Origin: Apostichopus japonicus
Lineage: Eukaryota > Echinodermata > Holothuroidea > Aspidochirotida > Stichopodidae
Assembly: GCF_037975245.1 (NCBI RefSeq)
Contig: NC_092577.1
Location: 18,846,898-18,910,897 of the forward strand
DNA: 64,000 bases
Direction of reading: 5' to 3'
Shown here: positions 21,301-62,900 of the stretch, one piece after another
Layout: each line of letters opens with the position of its first letter
Position numbering within the stretch: position 1 is the first letter of the stretch
The notes under the pieces: generated by a model
Seen by the model: only the letters and a program-made list of their open reading frames with translations
Databases searched by the model: none
Told to the model about the DNA's origin: nothing
Program-made: the position numbers and the translations under genes

Positions 21301-24300
21301 GGCAATTCTTATCACAAGGATACTTTGTTTCAACAGTTACCCAAATGTGGAAAAAACAATATAAGGACAAAAATGGAATTGATTGTTAACTTTGTATTTC
21401 TGGTCTTCATTTGGACGATTGCTTTTATGTTTACATTTTATGTTCTGTTCTGTTTATAACTTCGTAGTCACAAACGTCTAATTTATATTTCACGCTTGTA
21501 TTATCTGTAGACACATTTGTGACTACATTAACATTGTAGATCCGGATGATGGCAGGGAGGAAAACGATGAAGTGCTGAATGCTGTGATTGAAGAAAGCTT
21601 GTTGGAAGTACAAGATACGAGGTGAGATGATAAACAACTGCAGCATATTATGCAGACCCTATTACAATGTAATGTGTTAGTCGATTGTATGCATTCCTCT
21701 TTCTATAGAAACACTCGCAGCTGGCTCACATTTAATCCCCGTTGAACTGACATACCCTGGATATATCATAGTGAAGCCTTCGGTTTCGGCATAAAAAGAT
21801 ATATTATATTTAACCAAGGCGTTCGTAACTTACTATATGAATATTCATTACTTATCACCTATCTTTACCAACAAAATGAAAATCATACTACTTGATGTTG
21901 GTCAAAGAATATGCAGCTATGTTCAGTTTGGTGAAGAACCGAAACAATATGTATGCAGTGAAAGATGGTACTGGTTCTATAGCTCCACTGAGTTAAACAT
22001 TGCTTGACCTCTGACCGTGTTATGTATATAATGGTTATTTTGAAAGGGACCGCGGAAAGGTGGAACGGTGGGGGGGGGGGGGCTGGGGAATGATGGCTGT
22101 AGCGTCCCCCACATGTCCATTCGGACGTCTTTTCACCAATACTTTGGTGGTCATATTTTCCCCCTCAAAATCACACACACTTCAAAATCTTAAGAAGTAA
22201 CCAATGCTAAGGGAAAAGAACAACGCTATTTTCAATGACCGTGTAAAGACCGCGGTCGGAGGAAGAATAACAAAATGTACTTCAGAATTACATAAGTGCT
22301 GAGCTTACTTCTTTAATCATTGCATTTATTTATTTCATTAAATAGCGACCAACCTTCCCTCGATGCGCGCCTTCAAGAATCACTTGAAAATTTTCAGAAG
22401 GCAAAGATGTTGGAGGCACCTATGATTGTTGTGGTGCGAAGAAGGAAAGTTTTGAGGTTGTGTTTTCAGGAGAAGAAGCGGACGACTTGGGTGGTCCAAA
22501 GAGGGAGTTTTTCAGGTAGTTACAACAACAACAACAATTTGTGTTGATCTTAACAATTTCAGTAACTTTGAGTGACTTAATATCAATCGTATCTCTCGCT
22601 TGGAATGTTTTATAATGTAAAGTGATCCGTTTTGCAAACACATATATAAGGGCTACAAACGACTTGCATTTGGTTTTTGGATTCACTTCGTGCTGGACAT
22701 TTCCAGCATTTTAAATTTCCAGTTGACACTTCATTCAGTTTAGATCAGAACATGAATGTGGAATATACTTCTTAGAGGGCTGAGATGAATTGAAAGTACA
22801 CTATACCATGACAACTCGTACTCTTAAAGGAAGATAGGGTACTTATAATAGAAACGATTAACAATAAAACTGCCTCAGTGGACGTCCCCAGTCTTATGAA
22901 AAAAAGCAAATAAAAACGACTATTTTGTAACGAAATTTACTGGTGGAAGTTGGTATTGCTGAGGCAGTTTTGATTGAAATCCTTGCAGGATGCAAATTTA
23001 TAGCAGATTTGCTGGGACACCGTACAAGAAGTTAAGCAAAATATACCCCTCAACTACCTATCCTCCTTTAAATGATATTCGTTCAAATTTTTATCACTAT
23101 TTTGAAGACGTGTTACATAAACTGTGAATAGATTTTGCCGCCTTTTTTATATTGATACAGTCTACTCATGCAACATGTACCTGACATGGGCATCTTCGAG
23201 GGGACGTCTCCACAATTATACCTAACCCACTCGATTAATCATCTGAATAGGGGATTATATCGAGTGGCTGGGCAATTTATCGCGTGGAGTTTGTTGCACG
23301 GAGGACCAGGCTGTCCAGTATTCCATCCTGTTGTTTACAACATGATGTGTGACGCACAAGGAACATCAGAGGAAAAACTGAAAATCCGTGATGTCACAGA
23401 TGAAGAAGTTGTACAAAACCTGCAAATGGTTAGTCAAAACACAATACAAAGATACAGGATCAGGTGTGATTATGACCTGGGCTCTCAGCAGTCGGCAAGT
23501 CAAATTGTATTGGATGGTGTTCAACCAATTTGAATTTGTGATTACGTACCCGCATAACGTGTATTGCTAACCAAAGCAGACCGTACATTAAAGGTTGAAT
23601 ATATATTTGTTCTGATCGTTGAATATGTAACGTTAACAGTGTGATCACTGTGTTGCTATGTAACTTGTCGTCTCTGCAAGTACTAATAACTGATGATTTT
23701 TTTTTTCGTTATGAAATGGATGTGTCACAACACCATGAACAACAAAGAAATGTAAGAATGTACGAGATTGTAAGAATTGTTTTTATTCAACGCCCATCCG
23801 CCATAGTGCTAACGACCTACATTATACGATATACAAAACTACATGAAGCCTTTATTCTACGTATCCATGTTGTTATGATGACAAAAAGTTTTCCAAATTG
23901 TGTATGTTAGCATTTTTGGAGTTGGCAGCCAATTTAAAACTAAAAACGTAAAAAGCAAGATATCACAATCTGTTCAGATAAAAATATAAGTAAAGAGAAA
24001 AATTAGAATTTGTTTTATGTATTGTTGCGTAGTTTTTTTTTGTGAGGTGGCTGCCAGTGGGCAACCCGACGAATGTTGTTAATCTGTAGTTTAACTTTTT
24101 TTTTGTATATTATAGATTAGTGACAGCACCACCCAGGAAGACATGGACCGCGTTGTGGAAAACGTTGGCCAATGGGCAGCGGGCCGAGGATGCCTGGAAA
24201 TTTTCGGTGCAAAAGTGGCCGACAAAGACAACATTATTCAGCGCCTCTTGCAGCAGCACGTGTTTTATGGGTATGTGTGATATTGTTGGTAAATATGAAT

Positions 24301-30289: not shown

Positions 30290-32545
30290 CATGTCAACAG
30301 ATATGATAACATTGGTGACCTCAGATGACATGACCTTTAAGTTTCAAAATGTTCCACCACTCCGTTCACAACTTGTCCCAAAATATCAACCATGTCACAC
30401 CTTGGCATTGAGATTTAATTGCATTAAATGTCTAAAAATTAACTTTGAACTTGTATACATAACTTCACACACAAAAGGTCACCCGGAGGTCAACCAATTG
30501 ACATTTTTGATCGGTGAGACCTAAATAGAGCATGACTGTAAAAATTCAAACATTTTTTCTTTGCCCATTTTCTCCCCCCAAAATACTACTTTTTTAACAT
30601 TGGCTGATCTTTGGTGACCTTGTATCACATGACCGTTAAGTTTGAAAATATTCCCCTATACCACTTGCAACTACTCCAAAAATATCAACCTTGTCACACC
30701 TTGGAACTGGGAGTTATTGCACTAAATGTGTGAAAATTAACTTTGACCTCATATAACTTCGCACATGAAGGTCACACAGGGGTCAACCCATTGACATTTA
30801 TGATCAGAAGGTACCTTTGACATCTGAAAATATCATCGAAACTGTAAAAATCCACAAAACACGAAAAGGTCACCAGAGGTCAAATTCAGGTCAAGTGTCA
30901 CCCAGATGCGGGTCGACAATTGGATTATATTGAAGCAACTCCCAACCCTAAAGGACAATTTGTTCTCAAGTTATCGCAAAAATAATAGTTTTTATCATTA
31001 ATTGACCTTTGGTGACCTTGTATCACATGACCGTTAAGTTTGAAAATATTCCCCTATACCATTTGCAACTACTCCAAAAATATCAACCTTGTCACACCTT
31101 GGAACTGGGAGTTATTGCATTAAATGTCTGAAAATTAACTTTGACCTCATATAACTTCGCACACGAAGGTCACACGGGGGTCAACCCATTGACATTTATG
31201 ATCAGAAGGTACCTTTAACATCTGAAAATAGCATCGAAACTGTAAAAATCCCCAAAACACGAAAAGGTCACCAGAGGTCAAATTGAGGTCAAGGGTCACC
31301 CAGATGCGGGTCGATAATTGGATTACATTGAAGCAACTCCCAACCCTAAAGGACAATTTGTTCTCAAGTTATCGCAAAAATACTAGTTTTTTATCATTAA
31401 TTGACCTTTGGTGACCTCGGATCACATGACCGTTATGTTTGAAAATATTCCCCTATACCATTTGCAACTTGTCTCAAAATATCAACTGTGTATCACCTTG
31501 GCACTGGGAGTTATTACACTAAATGTCTGAAAATGAACTTTGACCTCATATAACTTAACATACAAAGGTCACCTTGGGTCAACATATTGACATTATTGAT
31601 TGATGAGACCTAAATAGAGCATCAAACTATACAAATTCAAACTTTTTTTTCTTTGCCCATTTTCTACCCCCAAAATACTAGTTTTTTAACATTAATTGAC
31701 CTTTGGTGACCTCGGATCACATGACCGTTAAGTTTGAAAATATTCCCCTATACCATTTGCAACTTGTCCAAAAATATCAACCGTGTCACACCTTGGAACT
31801 GGGAGTTGTTGCGATAAATGTCTGAAAATTTACTTTGACCTCATATAACTTCGCACACGAAGGTCACACGAGTGTCAACCAATTGACATTTTTGATCGGA
31901 GGGTACCTTTGATATCCAAATCTAGCATCAAAACCAAACATTTTCTTTTTTGCTCGTTTCCTCCCAAAATAAGCACATTTTTTCTAATGTGACCTTTGAC
32001 CTTTTGACCTTGGTTTCAGATGTAGTTTAATCTCCTGATTCCAAAAAACAAAACGACAAGTCTGTACAACCATCCTAACTCCGACCGAAAAACTTTGACC
32101 CCATGTCACTTCGCACATAAAGGTCACACGGGGTCAACCTGATGACATTTATGATCAGAAGGTACCTTTGACATCTGAAAATAGCATCAAAACTGTAAAA
32201 ATCCCCAAAAACACGTAAAGGTCACCAGAGGTCAAATTGAGGTCAAGGGTCACCCAGATGCGGGTCGACAATTGGATAACATTGAAGCAACTCCCAACCC
32301 TAACGGACATTTCGTTCTCAAGTTATCGCAAAAATACTAGTTTTTTATCATTAATTGACCTTTGTTGACCTTCGATCACATTACCGTTATGTTTGGAAAC
32401 GATCCCTTACCCCATTCACAACTACTCCCAAAATATCAATCATGTCGGACCCTGTCAATGGGAGTTATTGCTGTTTTTAATATATTGGTTTTTGGCATCT
32501 AACTGACCTTTGGTGACCTTTGCGGGCACCGAAAACAATAGGGAT
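30290..32545 (+). repeat. Tandem array of ~300- and ~395-bp units
   Basis: The block 'ttgacctttggtgacct…atcacatgaccgttaagttt' starts near 30311, 30612, 31003, 31399, 31697 and 32356. Spacings are about 301, 391, 396, 298 and 659 bp. Longer units carry an extra 'gaaaaggtcaccagaggtca… agatgcgggtcga' segment. Shorter ones carry a 'tttctttgcccattttct' segment instead. The array is non-coding. Confidence 0.9.
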
Positions 32546-39584: not shown

Positions 39585-39990
39585 AGAAGACAAGGACTAG
39601 ACAATACCAGGACAAAGACTAGACAATACCAGGACAAAGACTAGACAATACCAGGACTAGGACTAGACAATACCAGGACAAGGACTAAACAATACCAGGA
39701 CAAAGACTAGACAATACCAGGACTAGGACTAGACAATATCAGGACAAGGACTAAACAATACCAGGACAAGGACTAGACAATACCAGGACAAAGACTAGAC
39801 AATACCAAGACAAGGGCTAGACAATACCAGGATTGAACGATAACAGGACGATACCAGTTTGCACAGACAATACCAGCAGACAAGACAAGACAAGCACTGG
39901 AAAATACCAGAACAAGACCTTTGTGTTGATATTGTCCAGTCCTTGTCTTGTCCTGGTATTATCTATGCAAACTGGTATTGTCTAGTCTGG
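39585..39990 (+). repeat. 22-bp minisatellite ending in an inverted segment
   Basis: About twelve units of ACTAGACAATACCAGGACAA(A/G)G run to about 39840. The segment 39930-39990 then carries the same words in reverse complement, so the right part (39850-39990) can fold into a hairpin. Confidence 0.9.
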
Positions 39991-50020: not shown

Positions 50021-50276
50021 CAACAAAAATCTTTACTAACACCTCCGAAATCTGTAGTATTTCGTGTAATCAATAGGGCAACACTTTATGTGAACTACAG
50101 CTCTTCATCTGTTACAGCTGTTATTGTACTGTGCTGTGCTATACTTCCCGCCAGGCGGGTGTGATAGCTTGTGTTCGTGTGTTTTCCTCAGTTCGTATAT
50201 CGTTTGTTGTTTGACTATCCTGTCTTTAGTTGTTTGTTTTTTGTTACTTCCCTGTGGCCTAGCCACCTTCGGTATC

Positions 50277-50470
50277 ATGGCATCGCGCGGTGATTCTCGG
50301 ATTGTTAAGTTGTCCTTCACCGGTGCAAGTTTTTAGTATTTTGAAGAGCAAGGGTGTTGTTGTGCCTGTAATACGTACGATTTACGTTTTACCAGTGACG
50401 TGGCCCGTCAGAAGGGTGTCACGTTGCTGAGTAACGTCGAGGGGATGACAGTTACTCCGTATGGGTAACT
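50277..50470 (+). pseudogene. Truncated ORF1/zinc-knuckle-type sequence, copy 1
   Basis: It starts MASRGDSRIVKLSFTGA, hits a stop, then in another frame reads LRFTSDVARQKGVTLLSNVE followed by GMTVTPYG. The same three blocks, in the same order, begin the 58846-60132 gene (MAARRDSKIVLLSFSGE; VRFTSEAARVRGVHVLEGVE; GLKVTPYD). The upstream bases are also alike (…tagccacc…tatcATGGC). The copy ends at about 50470, where the GC-rich island begins. Confidence 0.7.
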
Positions 50471-50479
50471 ATCATCCAC

Positions 50480-50710
50480 GTAGGACTACCCAGCAAGCAA
50501 GCCGAAGTCGGCCCGACGGCGGCCCGGCTTCGGCACCGAAGTCGGCCCGACGGCGGCTGCCGCCGGCGGGCCGCCGTAGATTTGGCACACGGCAAGTCGG
50601 CGGACCGCGGGCGGAAACGCCGCCGGGCCACCGGCGGCTCAAAGCAGGCCCGCCGGCGGCAGGCCGACGGCGGGCAGACGGCGGGCCGTCGGCAAATCAG
50701 CGCCGATGTC
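50480..50710. repeat. Very GC-rich island of CGGCGG/GGCCC words
   Basis: About 230 bp, roughly three-quarters or more G+C, in AT-rich surroundings, with alternating CCGACGGCGGGC and its complement. It includes a direct repeat of 'gaagtcggcccgacggcgg' (50503 and 50539). It can form many hairpins. Coding is not supported. Confidence 0.85.
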
Positions 50711-50769
50711 TTTCAATTATTATTTTTTTTTCATTTATACTTTCATTTTCTACTGGGACCCAGCTGTAA

Positions 50770-52016
50770 TAGTCAAATAGATTATTTTAAAAATTGTGAC
50801 AGTTCATGAAATATGTTGATGAAATATTTCCAGCTGGAAACTAGTCACTGCATGTGTGTAGATTTAAGTGGGTCATTTTCGAAAAGTTTTATTAATTGAA
50901 TATCCAGAAAGACTGTGGGGACCGCAAAACTTTTAGAAGTGTGTATTCCAGATATAACGACAGTAAAGTGAAACCAAAATTTTAATAAAAACATAAGACA
51001 AGGAGCATTGACATAACATTGTCATAATTTATTAATTTAATGCATTTTCCTTTAATTACCAGATGTTTTAGCCATTTATGAACAATTCACTTAAATTATT
51101 TGATAAAGCCACAGAATGGAGGAAAAGAGTGAAGCAGATTTATGAAAACACTTGCCATCATAATATCAAATGAAGACGCCCACCGTGCGCCGAAATAGAA
51201 ACAGTGTAGAAAGGAACAATACGTTCGGCGTTCTCTCCATTTTTGCTTATAATTATACTGTGGACCATCACAAAGCTGTTTCAACAAGAATAAAGCAAAA
51301 CCAGTACTTTATATGTGGACTTTGCAACCGGATTGGAAGAAACGCTGTTCAGTCTGGACAGATGATATGAGAAAACATGTTTTTACAAACGGAACGTACC
51401 GTTACTCTCCCTCCCCCCCCCCCCCCGCCACCACTTATTTGGTAATACAGGGACACCAACTTGTTATTTTTCATACCAGGTCGTTAATATCAGGGACTTT
51501 GGAAAACTTGAATCCTTTGCTCGGAATTTCATGATCATTCCGTACCTCGTATTGTTGGCCTTTACATCTCATTATGAGTTAGAGTTTCGTTAAATACACT
51601 GAGTGGAATGTGTTTCCCTCTCACTAAAGAGTATTTCTCGTGAGGAAAAACTCAGTATAACAACCATACATTCTTACAAAAAGTATCATAGGGGAGAGGT
51701 ACAGTATATGCAATAATTGGACGTGCTGGTGATAAATCTTGACTGGTGGTTAAATATGTAAAATACTACCAAAAGGATGAGCCAAAATATATGACCATAT
51801 TTGTAAGCATGCATTTGCATATCTTAAAAATTAAACTGCACTAATTGAGATTTCAATTGCATGAAATGAATTCATGGCTGTAACTGACGTGAGGAACATA
51901 GTAGATTCTGCAATACAAGAAAATTATGAAGAGTGTAACAATGTAAGTGTAACAGCTTAATATATCTGCAGAATTAAAAGCCATGTACTGCCGAAGGATA
52001 GAGCTATAACGAAAGG
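50770..52016. other. No gene recognised
   Basis: Includes a run of C at about 51412-51427. No exon found. Probably the 3' flank of the DUF4806 gene that ends at 52017. Confidence 0.45.
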
Positions 52017-52177
52017 TTATTCCTCCTGTTCGTTACCAAACTGAACGTCGAAGTGGCGTTGCTGCCTTGCCTTCCGACCCCCTTCTCTATCAGAGGCTCC
52101 TTTAAAAAATTTAACGACCTCCCTTTGAATGTCCACTGCCGTGGAGTTGGAAGTTTGTTGGTTTTTCCTAATTGCTT
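52017..52177 (-). CDS. DUF4806 gene, last exon
   Basis: 161 nt after a CTGTAG acceptor, ending at the TAA stop at 52017-52019. It encodes the charged tail with KGASDREGGRKAR, commonly found after DUF4806. Confidence 0.7.
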
Positions 52178-55100
52178 CTACAGTTGAAAAAAGAAGAAAG
52201 TCAAAAAGAAAAACTTTTAGTTCCTTACATTGAGAGAATATGCATGTAAGTTCTTCATAATAATACATCGTTTGTGTATATTTTAGAGGAAAGGGAACTT
52301 CGTCCTTTTAATATGAACTCCAACCACATAAACCAGCAAATTCCAGGTAGTTTTCCTGAGTGTGTGAGCCACTAGTTTCGCTCCCCATGTTGCAGCAGGG
52401 AGTTGTTATGGAAACTCCCTGCTCCCACGTACCGGAGCACGTTCGTCAGTTCATTTGCGGGCTTTGGGGTATTCTGTATTGGCCCCAAATTATAGCATGC
52501 TATAATCTTAGTATTGAAGGTGAAGCACATATGAATTAAGTCTCTGCCGAAGATATCTTTGTATACAATTATCAACTAATAGCCTTATCTAATATGCATA
52601 TCATAATAAGCCTAAGTGCTTGTCTACTGAATTTTTCTTGGCCGTGGATCTGTCCGTTATCAATCGAAAGCGATGCCGGGGACGTTCTCGTTACAATAAA
52701 GCAAATAGATACGGGAAAATAGCTTTGCAAAAAGTAAGGCGTACATAATGTAAAGAAGCAAATATTCAATAAATTGTACGAACTTTCGAGAACTTTTCGA
52801 AGGAACAGGTCCTTAAAGACCAACTTCTCCCCTTGTCCTGTCCAGTTGATGCATATGGCTACACTATTCAGGATCAATTCCTGCAGCATCCTCCTAACTG
52901 CAACAGACAAGATCTGCCCACCTACTGACGACAGTGTCAAAATCTGGAAGAAAACAGTTGTGAATCTTTGAGTCTTCATGGAAGCCAGAATTTTCTGAGG
53001 ACTGCGTTATGCTCCAACTAGCTTCAACTTGACGTTTTTTCCAGCATGCTTATTTTACACCAGAAACGTGCACGAGACAGTGAGTGATACAATCTACCAC
53101 AAATCAATAGCTTATTCCACATCCTGTATTCGTCTAAAGTAATATTGCTCCAAATATCGTGAACTGCCCAACTTTGAATACCTGTTGTAAAAAAATAATG
53201 TCTATACGTACAACGACAACAACTACTTCTATGACTTCGCAAAAACAATACAAGAAGCCATGCCGTTACTATCGAGTAACGATTACTCTACTGTGCAGGC
53301 ACAACAATTTTCAAGGTTCTACCATTGATAAGGTATGTATTACTGTAGTATAGGTTTTTCAATAGTATAGTTGAAGGTTCGGTAAATGACTAGGCTAATG
53401 TAAAGTAGCTCAATTGACAAGGTTTACTAAATCAGACCTGTCAACCTGTTTGACCCCAAAATAGGGAGAATAACATTTTTCATGGCCAAAAAATAGGGAG
53501 CACAAGGGGAAATCGGGAGGTTGGTCATTTTCAACTGAAATGATATAAATACTCCTAAATAAGTATAGGCTAGTCTACTTATGCAGTACAGTGAGAGAGT
53601 CTTCCAATCAGTGTTTCTTGTTGTAGTTTACAGCAGCTGACTTCGCTTTCTACAGGGTTTCTTTAGTAGGCTTCCATTTGAAACATGGAACAGTGGACTC
53701 TGGGTACTGTAACTTCATGGCTAGTATGCTAGATAGAGTCCCATCAAGCTTGAGACTTAACCGACTGTCTGTCTTGTTCTTGCGAACTACACTCAATAGC
53801 CTTTCCTGTTGAGCGTTACAGTGGGAATTACTAAGCATGGGACTAATTGTTGGTTATTTTCAGAAATGTCGCAAGTGATGAAACATTAAAAAACCGGGAG
53901 AATAGAATATGAAACCAGGAGATGCGGGTAGAAACCGGGAGTCTCCCGGTACAACCGGGAGAGTTGACGAGTCTGCTAAATACTTCATAATTGACGCACC
54001 CTCGTTATTTGGTAAGCTATTTTAGTAAGTGGTGAGTTCTTGTTTCATACAGTACAAGTTATTTATCTATATATAGTGTATGTATTTTTTCTTCTTACAT
54101 AGGACAAAGTATGGGCAATTACCCAAACGTTTCTGTCAGAAGTGGAACAGATGAAAGGGGCAAGTTTACATCATCTGGCAGTTCCTCCAAATCCAAATGG
54201 GAGGCCTTAAGGGATTGAATTAAATGGGAATTTGCAACTGTTTGGCGCTTCAGGTTCCTTACTTCAGCTTTTATTTCTGCCAAAATCATAAGGATCTTCT
54301 TCTGAGTTGCTGTTAAGAGACAAAATCAGAGAAAGTTTTGTAAAAACAACATCACATGTTAAAAGTAGTCACTTTGAAGTGGAAGTGCAATGTGAGAATA
54401 GCAGACTGGTACTGTATATACATTGCATTCCCTGGCACAGAAGCACAGTAATTAAGAAAAAGAGAGAAATATTTATCCTTAGTAAACAAGTAACTGGAGT
54501 AATAGTTTGCACGGTTGCCACATTACCAGTCACCAGTGCTTGGTCAGCAGGTCAAAGAAATGTGCATTCTAGCAGTACTTGAACCTTTACAAAATGCAGA
54601 TCATGTACTATGCTTTATGTTTAAATTTACGGTACTACACACCATTAACAATGAAATCTGGGGTTGACATGGAAGATATGTTCCAACTGGACCCTGCTAG
54701 TGACTGGGTAGACCCGGTAGAGTGCCTTGCACTTATTGGTGATACAACAGGATCAGGAGGATTTATATTGGAGGTCAATGGCGTTGTAAGGGGAACCAAT
54801 GGCTGAATCGGTGGAGGAAGGGTGAATCTGCTCTCAGCTTCTTCTTCTGTGTCGTCAGAGGAAGACACATACCGGCGATTTTGCCTATGAGTATGAAATG
54901 GAAATAGACATTGAGTAAGTACATCACAGAAATTGCCTTTACCATAACATTCTTGTTGAGAGTATTGTGTCTGATTTGAACATACAGGATTTTTATGTCC
55001 GATATCATTTAAGCTGATGATAGGTCAATTTAAATATGGAGCTAGAGTTCATAAAATGTTACTGAACTTTCTGAGTTTCATACTTGTTAAGTCAGTAAGG

Positions 55101-55960
55101 ATGACACTTTTGGTTGAAGTTGTTTGAGTGAGACTGTACTGTATGTTCACTGTCAGCATCTCTATGACAAAGATCAATGATGGTAATTTTGGAATGTATA
55201 ACCTGCATCTATTTTTGTAGCAGTTTTGCTTGGTATATTTAAATCCAACATTAGCATATTTATATATTGGACACTTACAACTTCCTGCGCTTTGATGGCC
55301 TCTCATCTTCATTTTCAGTAGCTAAGTCTGAAGTCTCCTCAGCCCTTGTCAATAAGATCATTGCCCGTGCATAGGAACCTGAAGAAATGAAACAATTGAA
55401 AAAAATCTTGATAGTGGGCATTTGTGATGAACTAGTAAATTATTGTACACTATACAGTCAGTGGTATGGTCCTATCTGTAAATGAAAGGTTTTAATCTCG
55501 TACAGAACACACATGTACAGAAAGATACACTTTTCTCAGTTTCAACATTTACGTCGTGGAGATGTACAACACTATACAGGGAGATACTGTGGTCTTTGTA
55601 GCACCTTGATCCATCAAAGTAACCACAAAGCATAATGTTAATGAAAGAAACATTGTTATTGCAAATCATTTTACACTTTCATTTGAATTAATTGTGTTTA
55701 CAATACCTGTTGTTGACAGAACCCGAATGGTATGTCTCGTCCAAGATGCTTGCGGGGCTTCCACTGACTTGACTGCCTTCTCAAACCTTGTGGAAGATTT
55801 ATATGGTGGCCAGAAGCATTCTCTTTCGCCAGTTCTCCATTGCGATGGAATGGCACTACCACAAAGCTTTTCTTCCGAGGAATAAGGACATATTTTTCCA
55901 GGATACTTGAGATTGGAGCATACTCTAGTTTCCCACTGAGTAATTTGATCTTGAATATGC
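52017..55960 (-). CDS. DUF4806-domain protein gene (seven exons)
   Basis: Minus-strand exons: about 55960-55707 (exact start uncertain), 55378-55279, 54884-54643, 54309-54123, 53181-53121 (tentative), 52943-52784 and 52177-52017. Phases chain correctly throughout. Segments in order: an N-terminal PSQWRTGERECFWPPY block, as at the start of DUF4806 proteins ('VVPS.W…C.WPPY'); SYARAMILLTRAEETSDLAT with a PSKRRK basic run; a low-complexity Pro/Ser region; KKILMILAEIKAEV coiled-coil-like helix with DVNLPL; and the DUF4806 core ILTLSSVGGQILSVAVRRML…NWTGQGEKLVFKDL. The tail (AIRKNQQTSNSTAVDI…GASDREGGRKAR) ends at TAA. The function of DUF4806 proteins is unknown; nuclear location is plausible. A transposase-like frame lies immediately upstream and overlaps the first exon in another frame. 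Confidence 0.75.
52784..52943 (-). CDS. DUF4806 gene, core-domain exon
   Basis: 160 nt between TTCTTCCAG and GAAA|GTTCGT. It encodes SSVGGQILSVAVRRMLQELI and ICINWTGQGEKLVFKDL, the diagnostic GG…V+R+L…NW.G…K.F..L pattern. Confidence 0.8.
53121..53181 (-). CDS. DUF4806 gene, tentative short exon
   Basis: 61 nt after a strong TTTTTTTACAACAG acceptor, encoding YSKLGSSRYLEQYYFRRIQD. It is the only piece found that links the preceding (phase 2) and following (phase 0) exons in frame, but its donor (GAT|GTGGAA) is weak. Confidence 0.35.
53433..53975. mobile_element. 543-bp hAT-like element in an intron of the DUF4806 gene
   Basis: The ends CAGACCTGTCAACCT and (reverse complement) CAGACTCGTCAACTC match at 12 of 15 bases. 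The direct repeat CTAAAT lies immediately outside both ends (53427-53432 and 53976-53981). It encloses a decayed transposase C-terminal fragment on the minus strand. Confidence 0.75.
53592..53855 (-). pseudogene. hAT-type transposase C-terminal remnant
   Basis: The minus-strand frame reads SNSHCNAQQERLLSVVRKNK and TDSRLSLKLDGTLSSILAMK…CFKWKP. This matches the C-terminal dimerisation region of hAT-related transposases ('SNADCER.FS.V.KNKT..R…L…L.SLL..K'). A stop follows KPTKETL, after which the frame continues KAKSAAVNYNK, so the stop is a lesion. Confidence 0.65.
54123..54309 (-). CDS. DUF4806 gene, helix exon
   Basis: 187 nt between TTAACAG and TTTGG|GTAATT. It encodes a Lys/Ile/Leu-rich helix (KKILMILAEIKAEVRNLKRQ) and the DVNLPLSSVPLL linker into DUF4806. 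Confidence 0.7.
54643..54884 (-). CDS. DUF4806 gene, low-complexity exon
   Basis: 242 nt with acceptor CTCATAG and donor AATG|GTGTGT. It encodes NRRYVSSSDDTEEEAES followed by a Pro/Ser/Thr-rich region, probably disordered. Confidence 0.65.
55279..55378 (-). CDS. DUF4806 gene, second exon
   Basis: 100 nt with acceptor CTTCAG and donor GTT|GTAAGT. It encodes SYARAMILLTRAEETSDLAT then PSKRRK. Confidence 0.75.
55707..55960 (-). CDS. DUF4806 gene, first recognisable exon
   Basis: Frame with PSQWRTGERECFWPPYKSST… VEAPQASWTRHTIRVLSTT, ending at ACAG|GTATTG. The true start is not resolved because the upstream bases also encode the tail of the transposase frame. Confidence 0.6.
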
Positions 55961-57820
55961 CAAGTTTGGTGGAATCCAGTGGATATGTGAAAAAATTTTC
56001 TTTGTGACAAAACTTTTCATATAAGATGAACTTGCTGCCATCGCTGACAAAGAAGTTTCTGGCAAGAACAATTTCTTCACCAATTTTAACACAGTTGTCC
56101 CCCATAGATATTTTGATAGTGCAATCTTGAAGGTTGAGTACTTTGTATTGTGAGGAAGTTACCATGGTCTCAGGAATCTGTCCACCATTGTGGGGCTGCT
56201 CAAAAAGTTCTTTGTTTTTAGTAGGAAATGCTACATGGTTTTCAGAAAGACGTCGAATAACTTGTTGTAAGGGGTAATTTGCATTCCTAACCATTCTTTT
56301 TATCTGTCCCAAATAACTTTCGAAAGGGAAACAGGATACATTGTCCAATGCACCATATTGTTGTACATCCTCTTTCAAATGCACAAGTCCATGTACATTG
56401 TATGTAATCATGTCATTGCCATAGAGAGTTGCATAGTGCTTGATGAAAGTAACAATTAACTGGTGACCAAGCTGTAACTGCTACAGTTGATTGGACTCAA
56501 ATATATAAACATAGCAACAGATAAAAGCATGAAATTTTCATAAAATGGCTTTGGAATGATTCTGTAAAGAACAACTGGACCGGTGTACAAAAGAAATTGC
56601 CGAAGCTCTGTGGCTTTCCACCGTTCAAACTTATTCAGAGATCGAGGTTGGCGAGCAAATTCACGTGGTAGAGCACCATTCAACGATTGCAATTTTGCAG
56701 AAATTTCTCTGATAAGTTGAGGGCTCTGTCTTGTCTTTAGTGGACCTTTCAACCAAAGCTTTACCAGTCTGCGTGTCACTCCCAAACATACTAGGTGCAT
56801 GTAGTCTAGAGGGAAGTTAGATACCATACCCAATGAAAGTTGGGATAGTGGAGTTTCCCCTAGATGATTTTCATGTAGCATATTTCTAAATGAATGGTCA
56901 GTGCGATGATCTGCTTCTGTTTCTGGGAAAGTTACTTTGTTGATGTACACGCCTCTTTCAACACATCTTTCACAGCCGGAGTAGCCACTATGACCCTTGA
57001 TGTTTTTGACCATGGCTCTTGCAGGGGCATCACATATGATTGCTGTCATAACCACTGTAAGCTTTTCTCCCTGAACTTGAATTCCATTTTGCTCAACATT
57101 TTGGTAGTCTGCTACAAATTCATTCAAAAATTCCAAATCAGTTGGCTTCCTTTTCCCATACTACAAGCCAATCACAAAAGGACATTTTCTCTCACATGCA
57201 GTGATCATACCCAATATGGGCCAAAACTGCGAGTTTGAGCTTTTGAATAGAGGTAAACCATCAATGTTTACATGCAACGTTATTGTTTTGTATTTACTAC
57301 TTAGGGACTTTTGTCTTGAGTTCAGAATAGAGGTAATTCCATTCTCAATCCCAACATGGTAATATTCACCTCCTGAGACAATTGTTGTGTCCACTTTGGT
57401 TTGCGTGCCTAGTAAAGTTCTAGGGTCTTTTGGAAGGTCAGGATGGTCATTTTGAAGAATGACAAGGAGCTCAGAGAGTGAAGCATGAGAAATATTATAC
57501 TTTGAGGCCCATTGCCCAAGCTCAATTTTCAGTGTGGAATTTATTTCATCCCTTCCATCAATTTCACCATCTGAGTCAGAGTATAGTTCATCAACATCTG
57601 AGTGAAAGGTCTGGAACAAATCACTGTCAACACCATCAGCAACATCATTTTCAGACAACTGTTCCAGTTGGTGCAACTTCTGCAGTTGGCTCCTTTTTTC
57701 TGTTGGTCCAGAGAAATTATTTTGCCAGCGAGATTCATCTGATATTGTTTGTATGTAGTTTAACACTTCATCATTGATTTTTCTTCTCTTGGTGCGATAT
57801 GATTGTGGACCATGATCCAT
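55850..57820 (-). pseudogene. CACTA/EnSpm-like transposase with one stop and one frameshift
   Basis: Reads from ATG at 57820 (MDHGPQSYRTKRRK). An acidic region is followed by NIDGLPLFKSSNSQFWPILG, then VMTAIICDAPARAMVKNIKG and a CERC pair, then FPLDYMHLVCLGVTRRL with KLWLKG, and ERWKATELRQFLLYTGPVVL. In another frame come YNVHGLVHLKED…FPFESYLGQIKRMVRNANYP and a C-terminal domain ending near KYVLIPRKKSFVVVP. These blocks recur in order in animal CACTA-type (CMC supergroup) transposase proteins. Asp residues in NIDG and ICDAPA are candidate catalytic positions, and the Cys pair and Met-His block fit CMC features. Lesions: TAG at 57161-57163 where the family has Tyr, and a one-base shift near 56470. 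No terminal inverted repeats were identified. Class assignment rests on recollection of the family. Confidence 0.7.
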
Positions 57821-58840
57821 GATGAGCTATCAGGGAGATAAACCAAGTTTGGAACAGTTACAGTAATGCATACAGTATAGATTAGGTGTTGAATGTTTAA
57901 TTTAGTTTTGTAGAAAAAAGGATCAGGAAGGACAATTAAGTCCCCATCAAAGACCCTATTGGAGAGAAGGAACCGAAGACACAAAAAGTGACACCTGATT
58001 ACAATGCTTAAAATGCTTGTGTGAAGTTGTTTCAAAAATTTGCCTTCTTTCTGTTTTACTTGTTGAAAACCAAATTCCAATTGCAAATTGTTCACCAGTA
58101 TCCTTCAGTCTATTAGAAAGTAATAAGTGTAATGCATCATATATGTATTTATACTAGGTCCATTTTAAATAAGCCTTTCTTCACTATTTTAGCTTCTTTA
58201 TCTTATGGTTTCGAATGTTTAAATGTATATTTTAGTAACAGAAATTCAGTTAGCATTTGTTGATTGCCAAATTATTCGTTAAATAAACGGGAGTTTTAAC
58301 TTTACAACCTTTGCAAGCAATATTGTTTCTATGAATGTTATTTTTCAAGGTGTGAGTGCAGGCGGGAACTTTTCACATTAAGGCAAGTCCCATTCCACAG
58401 TCAAGGGTGGCTGAAAGCGGCTACAAATTACAAACCTTAAACGGGAAAGTCCTACTTCTAGGAGGAAAAAAAGGTGCATGCCTTTTAGGCAATTTGTCCC
58501 AATTCTTTTTGAAAAAAATGAACTGTGCTCAGTTGGCTGCCTATATTTTTTCATATATATATCTGCATGTTTGGTGAAACACTTCAAGGTAGAACATTAC
58601 TACAGTTTTAGCATATTCACTTGTGTTGAACTGTTTACAGTTCAGTTCACTGAGTTCAGTTCAGTTCTCGTGGAGTGCGGACGTGTTTTCGGCTGCTCTC
58701 CACCTTTCGTTGACCACACCTTTATTGTGTTTTTACGTTGGCCCTTCATTAGTTTACAGTTTGTTTTAGTGTAGTTTGTGTGTTTTGGGTTTGTTTCGTT
58801 TTGGTGTGTGTATAGGTGCGTGGCTTTGCCACACCCCTAG
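57821..58840. other. No gene recognised
   Basis: AT-rich 5' flank of the transposase on one side. From about 58600, T/G-rich sequence leads into the zinc-knuckle ORF and may be its 5' UTR. Confidence 0.4.
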
Positions 58841-58845
58841 CTGTC

Positions 58846-60132
58846 ATGGCGGCTCGCCGTGACAGCAAAATCGTATTGTTGAGTTTTTCGGGGGAGGCTA
58901 AGGTCGTCCCCGTACAAGTTTTTTTCAGTTTTGCGTTCTGTTGGTTTAAAGGTCCCTGGAGAGGTTGACGCGCTTCAGCGTAAACCTCTCCGGGGTATGA
59001 ATTGTTTTGATGTACGGTTTACCTCGGAGGCTGCCCGCGTCCGAGGCGTCCATGTGTTGGAGGGAGTTGAGGGACTGAAGGTCACACCGTATGACAGTTC
59101 GGTGTGGGTGACAGTCCTCCATCTCCCTCTGGACATGTCTGAACAGGTTGTTGTGCGGACACTGGGGCGTTTCGGGAAAGTGACCGGCTACGAGGAGCCG
59201 GAATTCCTTGAATGTATGGGTGTCAAGACCGGGACTAGACGAGTTAGAGTTGAACTCAAGTCCGATATCCCCTCTACCTTGTGGGCTAATGGGCACAGGG
59301 CCCACGTTGCATACCCGGGCCAGCCTCGCACTTGTTGGAGGTGTGGGCTGGAAGGGCATGAGGCCAGGTTGTGCCCGAACAAGCGGTGTAGCCGCTGTTT
59401 ACAGGTTGGGCATACCCTGGCCGAGTGTAAAGGGGATATCGTTTGCAACTCGTGTGGGAAAACGGGCCATCTCGCCCGTTTATGCCCAGACCGCTCATAC
59501 GCCGCGAGAGTGGCTACGGGCGTGGTTGAAGCGGTCCCTGTCCCGGCCTCTGACACCGTACCACATGATGCTCCTGTCATCGCCCCAGTGTCCGACACTA
59601 GCGCCCCGATGGAGGCTTTGTTCCCCTTTCGTGTCCGACCTCTCCCCTGATCGAACTTGCCGAGACTGCCAGCCTGCCCACTGAGGCAAAGCAGGACAAA
59701 ACGGCGGAGATGGTACTAGCGGAGTGGCACGCGGCGCAGGATGCCGCTTGTACTGGTTCACCGGTAGCTACGCCCGCTATCGGTGATACTAGTCGGGCCC
59801 CGAGTCAACCGGCCCAAGAGACATTAAGTGGCCCAGATTCTGACTCGCCAATGGAGGACTGCACTACAGCCTTATTAGTTGTGGCTAAGGAGTCCTCCGA
59901 TTGGTTTGATGAGACAAAACAGGCCACTGATCTCATTGACTCGAGTGGCCCTTCCACCCTACCCGCAGCCGCTATACCGGACACGATGGTCGCTAGTGGA
60001 CCTCCTGTTCCTGACAGGGAGGTCCACTCGACCAAGGTTGACGAGGAGTTAAGAACTCTGCTCCCTCGTAAGAAAAGGGGGAATACTGTTAGGGGCTTGA
60101 AAAGACCCGTATTGGGAAAATTTCGCAGGTAA
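58846..60132 (+). CDS. Zinc-knuckle (3x CCHC) ORF1/Gag-like protein with two frame changes
   Basis: Starts ATG 58846 (MAARRDSKIVLLSFSGE) and changes frame at a run of seven T near 58918-58924. It continues to 59650 (an RRM-like stretch with VTVLHLPLD…GRFGKV), then three CX2CX4HX4C knuckles: CWRCGLEGHEARLC, CSRCLQVGHTLAEC and CNSCGKTGHLARLC (about 59333-59487). A second change before 59650 restores the original frame, which runs through an acidic, Ser/Pro-rich tail to a basic end (PRKKRGNTVRGLKR) at 60132. About 428 codons in all. This is the layout of nucleic-acid-binding ORF1 proteins of non-LTR retroposons and of ZCCHC3-like derived genes. No endonuclease or reverse transcriptase follows. 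It is more GC-rich than its surroundings. Either a decayed element or a derived gene with sequence errors. Confidence 0.65.
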
Positions 60133-61530
60133 TGCGCAAGCCTGTCGTCTGCTATCGGGACGGCGTACCCCGGATGAGTTTTGGAGTTAGTTAGTTGTTA
60201 TGTGTGGGGTGGGGGGTTTGTGTGGTCCTTACATAATATGGGTTGGGGGTTTTCTGTTTGTGGTTTGGTGTTGGCTTTTTGGGGCTGGTTTGTGGAGCTT
60301 TATTGTTTTGGTTCTGTTGGCCTTTGGGTCCGTGTCCTTTTCACGGTCACGTTAAACGCTATATTTTATACATTTGTGGGTTAGTGAGAGATTTCTGTTT
60401 GTGGGTTTTCAGTTGGGTTTTTGGTGGTTGTTAAACAGACGGATTGTTTTTGGTTTTGTTGACCTTTGGTCCGTGTCCAATAGTTCGTTTTACAGAAATG
60501 TAGCCGAAATATCGAAGCGTGCTCTGGTTAGTTTCATTTCTTTTCAAAGCAGATCGCATTTTCCACGTACCTTGCGTGCATCTCCCACATTGACGTATTT
60601 CAGTGTTGTGCTGGTACTGTGTTAGGCCAGTTTAAAGGTTATTTTTTACCGAGTACTGTAGTGAATTTTGCATAATCTGTGATAAATTCAAACATGCGAG
60701 TACGCATTTCGGTTTGACATAGATTAGGCGTACTGAAAGGATACAGTCTACATACGTTGTGTGTCGCATGTAGTAACTTTCCTGCTTAAATCAGCGAGTC
60801 AAGCTGAATTATTCTAGTTCACGTTGGGCCTCTAAAGTCTGGGTAGGCTTTCGTACGCGATCAGATTTATGTTTAGATTTATGTTACACAGTTAGTAGGC
60901 CTAACGTGTCTAAGCTAGAGACAAACACACGGTCAAATAAGCTCGTGAGTTTAGGCCTTATATCAATGGCTTATTAATAGGCCGTATTTTCAGTGGTATA
61001 CAGCTATTCACGACGAGTATGTACCATACCCTGTCGAGAACTTGGTAATTTGACATGAATTTTAGCCTAGGCTTTAGACTAGGTAAGGCACTTTTAATCG
61101 ATCCTGTGTAGGCTATTTAATAATAATATGTGGTAGGTCTAGCAGCAAGTACCGTAGGCCTAGTTGTTGTACTAGTCCTATTATTCTAGCCTTTGTAGTT
61201 CAAATGCTATAGAATAGAACTAGTAGTATTACCACTATAGTCCTATGTACAATACTTGCAAAAGTTGTATCATATTATTCAAAAGTTATATAAGGCTGGG
61301 GTGGAGAAACCCAACTCTAGTTTGAATGGCCTAGAGTTATTGTACAATGCGCTCGATTTGTTTATTAGTTAGTATAATGAGTGTATATTAATTGGTATTA
61401 CTGTACATGGAAAGAATGCTAGGAAGTAACAGCATGTCATTATCAATTATGTAGCCTGGGCAAAATATACAAAGTATTCTTATTGGAAGAAAAACATGAG
61501 CAAATAATGCTGCGTAGGCCTATAGTAATA
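60133..61530. other. No gene recognised
   Basis: The first ~500 bp are T/G-rich ('gtttttggttttgttgacc' style), possibly the 3' UTR of the zinc-knuckle ORF. The remainder is AT-rich with TAGGCCTA words. Confidence 0.4.
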
Positions 61531-61534
61531 CAAA

Positions 61535-61799
61535 GTGGCTATTCTTACGACTAGTTGTAAGAATAATTTATAAATACGCACGCGCAGTTGCTTTAACATG
61601 GCTATTTTTACAACTAGGAGTACTATTTTTACAACTAGGAGTAACAATAATTTCCAGTTAGGGTTAAGGTTAGTGTTTAGGGTTAGGGTTACCCCTACTT
61701 CATGTGCAGTTGCTTTATTTACTTTACTGTGCTTGAATTCGCCGATGTCGTAAGAATAGTTTATAAATAATTGTTACGACTAGTCGTAAGAATAGCCAC
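61535..61799. mobile_element. 265-bp miniature inverted-repeat element with telomere-like core
   Basis: GTGGCTATTCTTACGACTAG at the left is matched by its reverse complement at the right, and similarity extends inward for about 40 bp to TTTATAAAT. Each arm contains the palindrome TTACGACTAG(T)CGTAA. The interior carries TTAGGGTTA-type repeats (about 61655-61690). No clear target duplication. Confidence 0.75.
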
Positions 61800-62258
61800 G
61801 GCCATAGTAATATGTCATTGTTATTAGTATTAATGTTATGCAAGGCTGAAATTTGTTCAGATACCCAATCATGTCTATGCAGTAGGTAGGCAAGGCCTAG
61901 TAATAGGATGTTATATTCACCATGCTGCTTTTAGTCTGAACATCAAGTTTTTAAGAATTAATTTCTCAGGCTGAAACCTGTTTCCTTGCACATGTAAGTT
62001 GTAATGCTGACCTGTTACTAATAACTGGTCAAAATTAAAATGGGCCTTGTACCCCTTACTGGTAGCCCTGGTCCAGGTGTACTCTAGTATAATTATGCTG
62101 TCATTGATTAGATGGGGAAGATCTATTTCCATGGTATTCATGTAGCTATAGGCTATGCCCTAAATGACTAGGTCTGACCTAACCCGGGTTTGGCTAAGCA
62201 ATATATATAAAGTCCAAGTTATATGCATTATAAAGCAAAGGATATGCTAGTATATTAA

Positions 62259-62900
62259 AGAGGCCATGACACGAAAAATCCAACTCATCGAGAGTAACTT
62301 CCTCTGAATCTATGAGAAAATCTATGTTCAAAACTATCCTCAACACCTTGAAAACCTCAAGGACTAATTAGTAATTAACGTTTTAATATTCGCATCCGAA
62401 AATAGATACCTGAGAATGCGATTTCACAACAAGACAATGATGACGTCATGTTAGGAACACACGTGCAAAGCTCAGGCATGTATCGGATGCGCGACGATCA
62501 TACCGTTCCATATACAGTACACGCATATTTACACTGAGAGAACAACCACTGTATTACGCTATATCGTTAGAAATTTCAAGTTTGTTTTACAACTGTTGTA
62601 AACTATCCGAGAGAAATGCCGGTCCGTTGTGTTGTTGGGGCTGCATAAATATCATTACCCATGCAATTAGCCTTCATCCATGGCTGAAGGACGAAAAAAA
62701 ACACGGCGATTATGACCAAGTTAGTGCACAACACCAGCGCCGATTTCACTGGGCCTAGCCAGTATGCAGCTCCGAATGAAGCGAACACTTCACGGAAGCA
62801 TACTACGATCCCTCCTTTTTGTTATGAAATAAAACAAATGGACTTTAACGGTTCGACATAAAAGAGTCATTCTTCTGTCAAGTAATCCACAAAAAACTAC
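62259..62900 (+). pseudogene. 5' end of a Kolobok-like element with a broken THAP domain
   Basis: TTAA (62255-62258) is followed by AGAGGCCATGACACGAAAAA, the type of end carried by TTAA-targeting elements. From 62616 the sequence reads MPVRCVVGAA, the start of a THAP zinc finger, then a stop. Further on, in a different frame, SEHFTEAYYDPSFL matches the 'C.EHF….' end of the THAP domain. Kolobok-type transposons are known to use TTAA targets and encode THAP domains. No intact reading frame and no 3' end found. Confidence 0.5.

Follow-up and report, generated by a model that had tools for sequence, protein, structure and literature searches.

A locus in the genome of the sea cucumber Apostichopus japonicus raises the question of how a transposase came to run into a protein of the DUF4806 family. 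The locus lies in a stretch of 64,000 nucleotides, referred to here as the window. The minus strand at positions 52017-57820 carries a transposase frame (...YVLIPRKKSFVVVP, to 55851) that is open from 56480 to 55701, and a frame for the DUF4806 block PSQWRTGERECFWPPY that is open from 56016 to 55669. An earlier reading made from the DNA letters alone (the sequence-only reading) noticed that these two frames abut and overlap, as they do in the region 56016-55701, and it proposed that a mobile element normally carries DUF4806, that a host gene captured the transposase, or that the two were once fused. In our view the window probably contains the decayed remains of an animal transposon that is CACTA-related (TRC-like), is approximately 13-15 kb in length, and carries a transposase gene (open reading frame 1; ORF1) and a DUF4806 gene (ORF2) in tandem, with ORF2 acting as a TnpA-like gene.

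Copies of the locus and the junction between the two frames

The window sequence 52017-57820 was used as a query against the genome assembly of the same species (671,581,487 bases in 35 contigs), the sole genome examined, and the best 40 of 741 first-look candidates were scored, giving the 56 matching rows from which the locus counts stem. Twenty-seven of these rows match just approximately positions 1406-1964 of the query, which correspond to a miniature inverted-repeat transposable element (MITE) nested in intron 4. The remaining 29 rows represent 11 loci, window included, of which nine are on contig C17 and two on C16. The other ten loci, named copies B to K and taken with 20 kb around each, are 86-98% identical to the query across the matched parts, and 10 of the 11 loci contain both the transposase and the DUF4806 parts. 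The nine loci on C17 are clustered in approximately 8 Mb (15.5-23.8 Mb), which could stem from local hopping or from a heterochromatic refuge.

Nine copies (B, C, D, E, G, H, I, J, and K) span the junction. In each of them the transposase ends with ...KYVLIPRKKSFVVVPLLHF (...VVVPLLHF) and a stop codon, which is followed by a spacer, a splice acceptor (CTTTCAG, cut before a C), and the codons ATG TCT GAT that open the DUF4806 protein MSDTQTFLVVAFAGEDGVGVIPSQWRTGERECFWPPYK. The distance from the stop codon to the ATG is 54 nt in eight copies and 35 nt in copy D. The acceptor is located one base upstream of the ORF2 ATG and falls at percentile 0.964-0.982 of AG sites in all nine copies. The two parts, whose separate occurrence the sequence-only reading had named as a refutation, occur apart as reading frames and together as parts of the element, and the proposal that they were once fused is refuted for this family by a transposase stop codon and a separate ATG in every spanning copy.

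Compared with the window, the spanning copies have extra sequence at the junction, namely, 130 bp in seven copies, 111 bp in D, and 105 bp in K; D and K carry small deletions of their own at this place, and the 130-bp figure was counted against the seven copies free of them. The loss in the window, located at 55847-55852 by the match boundaries in all nine copies and by alignment, takes away the stop codon, the spacer, the acceptor, the ATG, and approximately the first 20 codons of the DUF4806 gene. The sequence-only reading had explained the offset between the frames by a five-base TTCCA insertion. These bases are found in all nine spanning copies, and the frames were brought together by the 130-bp deletion, with no insertion. 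Judged by this comparison of copies, the apparent fusion is the scar of a deletion that is seen in the window copy only. Many other single indels in the window would join the frames equally well, which makes the choice of TTCCA as the sole indel arbitrary. Caution is thus needed with a fusion read from one locus, since a deletion in a dead copy can leave the same appearance.

Dual coding of the overlapping frames was also considered and rejected, because the window transposase has comparable open runs in other frames at other places (72, 51, and 77 codons); for this reason the overlap of two open frames is weak evidence. At random places in the window, the chance of an open frame is p = 0.083 for 46 codons and p = 0.049 for 56 codons. 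In a codon-usage test, the exons were separated from non-coding sequence (mean of 0.176 versus -0.038, standard deviation of 0.043, 0/5000), although the other two frames of the exons were also above the non-coding value (0.054 and 0.145). Codon usage at the junction shows no preference for the DUF4806 frame (0.015 versus 0.176 and 0.195).

Ends of the element and its intact copies

The homology starts sharply at CCCAGCAAGCAAGCC after differing flanks in the window and in nine of the ten fetched copies, the exception being copy E. Both ends were found in six copies (C, D, G, H, I, and J), where they are 13,116 to 14,925 bp apart, and the 20-kb stretches fetched for B, E, F, and K yielded no right end. 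The terminal inverted repeat (TIR) is 35 bp long and starts with CCCAGC..., with 31 of 35 positions matching in C, G, H, I, and J and 30 of 35 in D. Identical 2-bp target-site duplications (TSDs) flank all six two-ended copies (TA in C, D, H, and J, AT in G, and TT in I). The sequence-only reading had suggested a search for inverted repeats enclosing both genes, and in all six copies both genes are indeed situated between the TIRs. The view that the element normally carries DUF4806 is borne out by this arrangement and by the presence of both parts in 10 of the 11 loci, and capture of the transposase by a host gene is not supported, since the whole unit moves together.

The outer 250 bp of the six full copies have a GC content of 70-80%, versus 38-40% for the whole element. 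The palindromic motif GCCGNCGGC is confined to these regions: all 59 sites (9, 5, 13, 11, 11, and 10 in the six full copies) are within 400 bp of an end, and they are found at both ends. In the 64-kb window there are four such sites, all at 50559-50685 beside the left terminus. The left TIR of the window copy (CCCAGCAAGCAAGCCGAAGTCGG...) occupies 50489-50523 on the 3' side of both genes, shares the CCC start, and is flanked by the dinucleotide TA. It belongs to a GC-rich subterminal repeat region (50489-50720) that contains GCCGNCGGC-type motifs, with 22-nt direct repeats at 50502-50685. The part of the element kept in the window extends over 50489-62262 on the minus strand, and its right end, 5' of the genes, is missing beyond approximately 62262; homology with G, J, I, H, C, and D ends at 62260-62265, and those six copies run on for 3.0-3.5 kb to the right terminus. 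A scan for ends inside the window could not succeed because this copy has no right end, and the CACT-type TIR pair at 51432/62726 with a 3-bp TSD that it produced is a chance hit.

Intact reading frames are present in other copies. Copy G (C17:20746071-20759611; 13,541 bp) contains a transposase gene open over 677 codons and a six-exon ORF2 encoding 369 amino acids with no internal stops. ORF1 consists of one exon and is open over 677 codons in both G and H, and ORF2 is fully open in G and J; exons that were unmatched by the exon patterns in the remaining copies do not constitute evidence of broken exons. Exon-1 damage was observed in B (a stop codon), C (a 2-bp insertion), K (a 25-bp deletion), and E (loss of the donor).

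Substitutions were counted over 45 pairs of ten copies, with F left out, stops and gaps skipped, and the alignment projected on G, and the pairs are not independent. ORF2 is under constraint, with a ratio of non-synonymous to synonymous differences (pN/pS) of 0.20 across these pairs. Between G and H, ORF2 has 7 non-synonymous and 21 synonymous differences and the transposase has 3 and 8, respectively, corresponding to a ratio of approximately 0.10 in both genes. Our reading of these counts is that selection may have acted on both genes along the lineages that led to the intact copies, with decay in the others. The synonymous divergence of ORF2 is approximately four times that of the transposase (0.073 versus 0.020 over all pairs; 0.081 versus 0.018 between G and H), as if the copies were mosaics of two subfamilies.

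Interpretation and relation to known systems

The layout resembles that of maize En/Spm, in which one transcription unit gives, by alternative splicing, the TnpD transposase and the DNA-binding protein TnpA, both of which are required (accessible parts of PMC1636069 and PMC2613891; the literature comparisons below likewise refer to the accessible parts of the papers cited). TnpA binds the subterminal repeats (PMC1636069, PMC2613891, PMC4158355), and plant CACTA elements have dissimilar second proteins that recognize such repeats (PMC2613891). The sea cucumber element likewise has a transposase, a second gene, and subterminal repeats, with binding and splicing that would be comparable. By analogy, the ORF1 protein would cut and join the element ends, and the ORF2 protein may serve as its TnpA-type partner by binding to the GC-rich subterminal repeats, with a role in the assembly or regulation of the ends. 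The ORF2 mRNA would probably be formed by splicing that skips ORF1 and joins an upstream 5' exon to the acceptor situated one base ahead of the ORF2 start codon, and transposition may require both proteins, as in En/Spm. In contrast to this element, plant CACTAs have CACTA ends and a 3-bp TSD. In plant CACTAs including Jozin, a stable ORF1 with DUF4218 beside the transposase domain is accompanied by an ORF2 that takes up varied domains (PMC8978399); the additional ORF2 domains described there for the Jozin type are Peptidase_C48 and Transposase_24, and DUF4806 is not among them in the accessible part of that paper.

Animal TRC elements have CCC ends and a 2-bp TSD, and relatives have been described from sea urchin, Ciona, zebrafish, and Aedes (PMC1636069). 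The label "CACTA-like" given in the sequence-only reading is therefore right as to superfamily likeness and is corrected as to the termini, which have CCC ends and a 2-bp TSD as in the TRC elements. In SmTRC1 of Schistosoma, the transcripts are alternatively spliced, exons follow the transposase ORF on its 3' side, and two ORFs stand in tandem (PMC1636069); the sea cucumber element shares the CCC core, the 2-bp TSD, the tandem ORFs, and the exons 3' of the transposase ORF, for which splicing is predicted here. On the other hand, the non-transposase products are described in the accessible text as not detectably conserved (PMC1636069), whereas the second product here is a DUF4806 protein. The TIR of 35 bp compares with 54 bp in SmTRC1, 27 bp in Tribolium, and 10 bp in Aedes (PMC1636069). 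Unlike in published TRCs, PF02992 was not detected in the sea cucumber element. The placement is based on the ends, the TSDs, the gene order, and weak domain hits, and the element is called TRC-like and not a formal TRC member because PF02992 was not matched and PF13960 was below the cut-off.

Several observations weigh against the interpretation given above. Copy F (C17:17.02 Mb) keeps the 3' part of the DUF4806 gene only, without a transposase, and the survey covers a single genome with the best 40 of 741 candidates scored. The ORF2 protein of G matches PF16064 (DUF4806) at residues 235-309, in exons 4-5, with an E value of 7.7e-5 and 23.4 bits, which is below the cut-off of 25. The intact ORF1 matches PF13960 (DUF4218) with an E value of 0.0019 and 18.5 bits, below the cut-off of 27, and Transposase_21 (PF02992) was not detected in the intact 677-amino-acid transposase in Pfam searches with E values up to 1. 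The transposase pN/pS summed over the 45 pairs is 0.64, a high value that is probably due to the inclusion of decayed copies, and the pair formed by B and the window shows a transposase without constraint (pN of 0.0112 and pS of 0.0077). The donor of exon 5, GTTCGT, is weak (score of -2.2), and the same bases occur in copies G, H, and C. Finally, DUF4806 has been described as a BEN subtype (PMC11075544, citing Pan et al. 2023), a link that is second-hand.

The assignment to DUF4806 in the sequence-only reading has the PF16064 match of copy G in its favor, below the cut-off as it is, whereas Pfam was blank for this family on the pieces of the window. In those pieces neither DUF4806 nor Transposase_21 was matched, and the only transposon family found was DUF4218 (PF13960), below the cut-off. 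A comparison peptide that matches PF16064 with an E value of 7.6e-15, and that was composed with prior sight of the window, is 32% identical to the window sequence over 81 columns, and its alignment score of 107, subject to the same reservation, compares with a maximum of 57 in 5000 shuffles. The AlphaFold model of the exon-5 piece, with a mean pLDDT (predicted local distance difference test) of 54.6, was too poor for use. CACTA transposases are described with catalytic D, D, and E residues and with C(2)C and H(3-4)H motifs placed after the second D and before the E (PMC12730594). Candidate motifs assigned by eye only in the sea cucumber transposase are NIDGLP, ICDAPAR, GCERC, and KATELRQF. 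The candidate histidine-pair motif is HRTDH in the window and HRTDQ in copy G, and the pair is thus not established. No match was found in NCBIfam and Rfam, no confirmed relative was found in collections of viral, bacterial/archaeal, plasmid, and phage sequences, which are silent on animals, and the solved structures gave no informative match (TALE proteins were listed and taken as chance).

Four other explanations were weighed. That the locus encodes one fused protein, broken in the window by the TTCCA insertion, is suggested by the continuous frame obtained when five bases are dropped and by the exon-1 frame of the window, whose open stretch contains no methionine, so that a start had to come from something upstream. 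This explanation is next to impossible, because all nine spanning copies have the stop codon, the spacer, the acceptor, the separate ATG, and an additional 105-130 bp, and TTCCA besides. It is very improbable, too, that the copies arose by segmental duplication of a host locus consisting of a gene and an old transposase. Such duplications would fit the concentration of nine of the 11 loci on one contig and the 24 like pairs of fragments found when the 1-kb flanks of the copies were compared; however, identical 2-bp TSDs stand at the exact TIR ends of six of six copies, and, of the 24 flank pairs, 18 have an inverted orientation or come from opposite sides, and the remaining six, which share side and strand, are offset by approximately 50 to 670 bp. 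This flank pattern is expected from insertion into common repeats and not from duplication of one locus.

A third possibility, which we consider improbable, is that ORF2 is a captured host DUF4806 gene carried as a passenger with no role in transposition. A soybean CACTA element with gene fragments offers a precedent (PMC1947982), and ORF2 has introns, whereas ORF1 is one open frame with none. A passenger accords poorly, however, with the presence of both genes in 10 of 11 loci and with the constraint on ORF2 between copies; the position, the order, and the acceptor fit a TnpA-type second gene, and the repeat-rich ends suggest a binding partner. Less easily set aside, though still unlikely, is the explanation that both are element genes and that ORF2 is expressed from a bicistronic mRNA or its own promoter instead of by splicing over ORF1. 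The gap from stop to ATG is just 54 nt, and tandem ORFs on one transcript have been described for SmTRC1 clone B4 and Spm TnpD (PMC1636069), but the good CTTTCAG acceptor one base before the ATG in all nine copies is best explained by splicing.

With the TRC-like element retained as the preferred explanation, the comparison points to DUF4806 as the second of the transposon's two proteins. This gives a domain of unknown function a context, as the second gene of a mobile element with at least one copy in which both genes are open, and, if the interpretation is true, the element would provide an animal equivalent of maize TnpA that carries a named domain. More tentatively, and with somewhat less than even confidence, the DUF4806 family as a whole could be the TnpA-type partner of animal CACTA-related transposases, and its patchy expansions in Hydra, zebrafish 4R, and beetles could be transposon copies or domesticated genes. 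Two Hydra species have 69 and 54 DUF4806 genes, compared with 0-6 in five other cnidarians (PMC7642931); zebrafish has four species-specific DUF4806 genes in the heterochromatic block of chromosome 4 (4R) (PMC11075544); and the DUF4806 genes of an ambrosia beetle are present in lineage-specific numbers (PMC13270666). A mobile origin, if true, would explain such uneven numbers. No link between DUF4806 and a transposon was found in the accessible parts of the open literature, and the transposon family may yet be listed in Repbase, which is outside that search.

Gene remnants and neighboring repeats in the window

The window copy is, as judged from its sequence, a dead element truncated at one end. 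The broken ORF1 (55851-57820, minus strand) has lost its own stop codon, and, with each lesion judged against three aligned copies, it carries an in-frame TAG at 57163-57161 and lacks 4 bp at 56474/56475 and 42 bp near 57696-57700. The remnant of DUF4806 exon 1 (55707-55852), from which the acceptor, the ATG, and approximately 20 codons are deleted, is followed on the minus strand by exon 2 (55279-55378) and exon 3 (54643-54884), both placed by splice sites and copy comparison. Exon 4 (54123-54309) is damaged: aligned with copy B, it has a net loss of 37 bp near 54133, and its length is 187 nt, compared with 224 nt in eight and 220 nt in one of the nine copies matched by the exon pattern (D was unmatched). 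Together with the TAG and the 4-bp and 42-bp deletions of the transposase, this loss excludes the one continuous protein envisaged in the sequence-only reading for the window copy.

Exon 5 (52784-52943; 160 nt) encodes the SVGGQ...INWTGQGEK core and has an acceptor at percentile 0.990 and the weak donor mentioned above. A start of exon 5 at 53001, taken from a window-only model misled by the damaged exon 4, was rejected, as the copies correct it to 52943. Exon 6 with the stop codon (52017-52177) has an acceptor at percentile 0.997 and is 161 nt long in B, G, J, and the window. Among all minus-strand AG sites in the window, the acceptors of exons 2-6 reach the 98.7th percentile or higher, and the donors of exons 1-4 are in the 92nd to 99th percentile; the good splice sites claimed earlier are thus present except for the exon-5 donor.

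Two insertions in the window copy are not part of the element. The MITE-like insertion in intron 4 (53433-53975; 543 bp) has the TSD CTAAAT and ends with CAGAC(C/T)(T/C)GTCAAC, and it occurs on many contigs at 91-93% identity (the 27 rows mentioned above). A nested repeat at 58651-60475 on the plus strand contains an open frame with CCHC zinc knuckles (zf-CCHC E value of 2e-7) and is unaligned there in the other copies; by our own reading it is like a long interspersed nuclear element, and part of this repeat is also present next to the right end of copy J. Another repeat fragment (50121-50458) directly borders the left end on its outer side and is found again beyond the right ends of G and J. 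These recurring flank repeats may reflect insertion into common repeats. The inverted repeat at 61535-61799, with 40-bp arms that are 93% complementary and 185 bp apart, has similar sequences (82-83%) elsewhere in the element inside copies G and J and is probably another small nested element.

Farther from the element, a plus-strand open frame at 23156-23533 has a weak HECT match (PF00632; E value of 4.8e-4, below the cut-off). Tandem arrays were observed at 30580-31594 (398-bp unit, 2.5 copies, 92%) and at 39589-39832 (22-bp unit, 11.1 copies, 91%).

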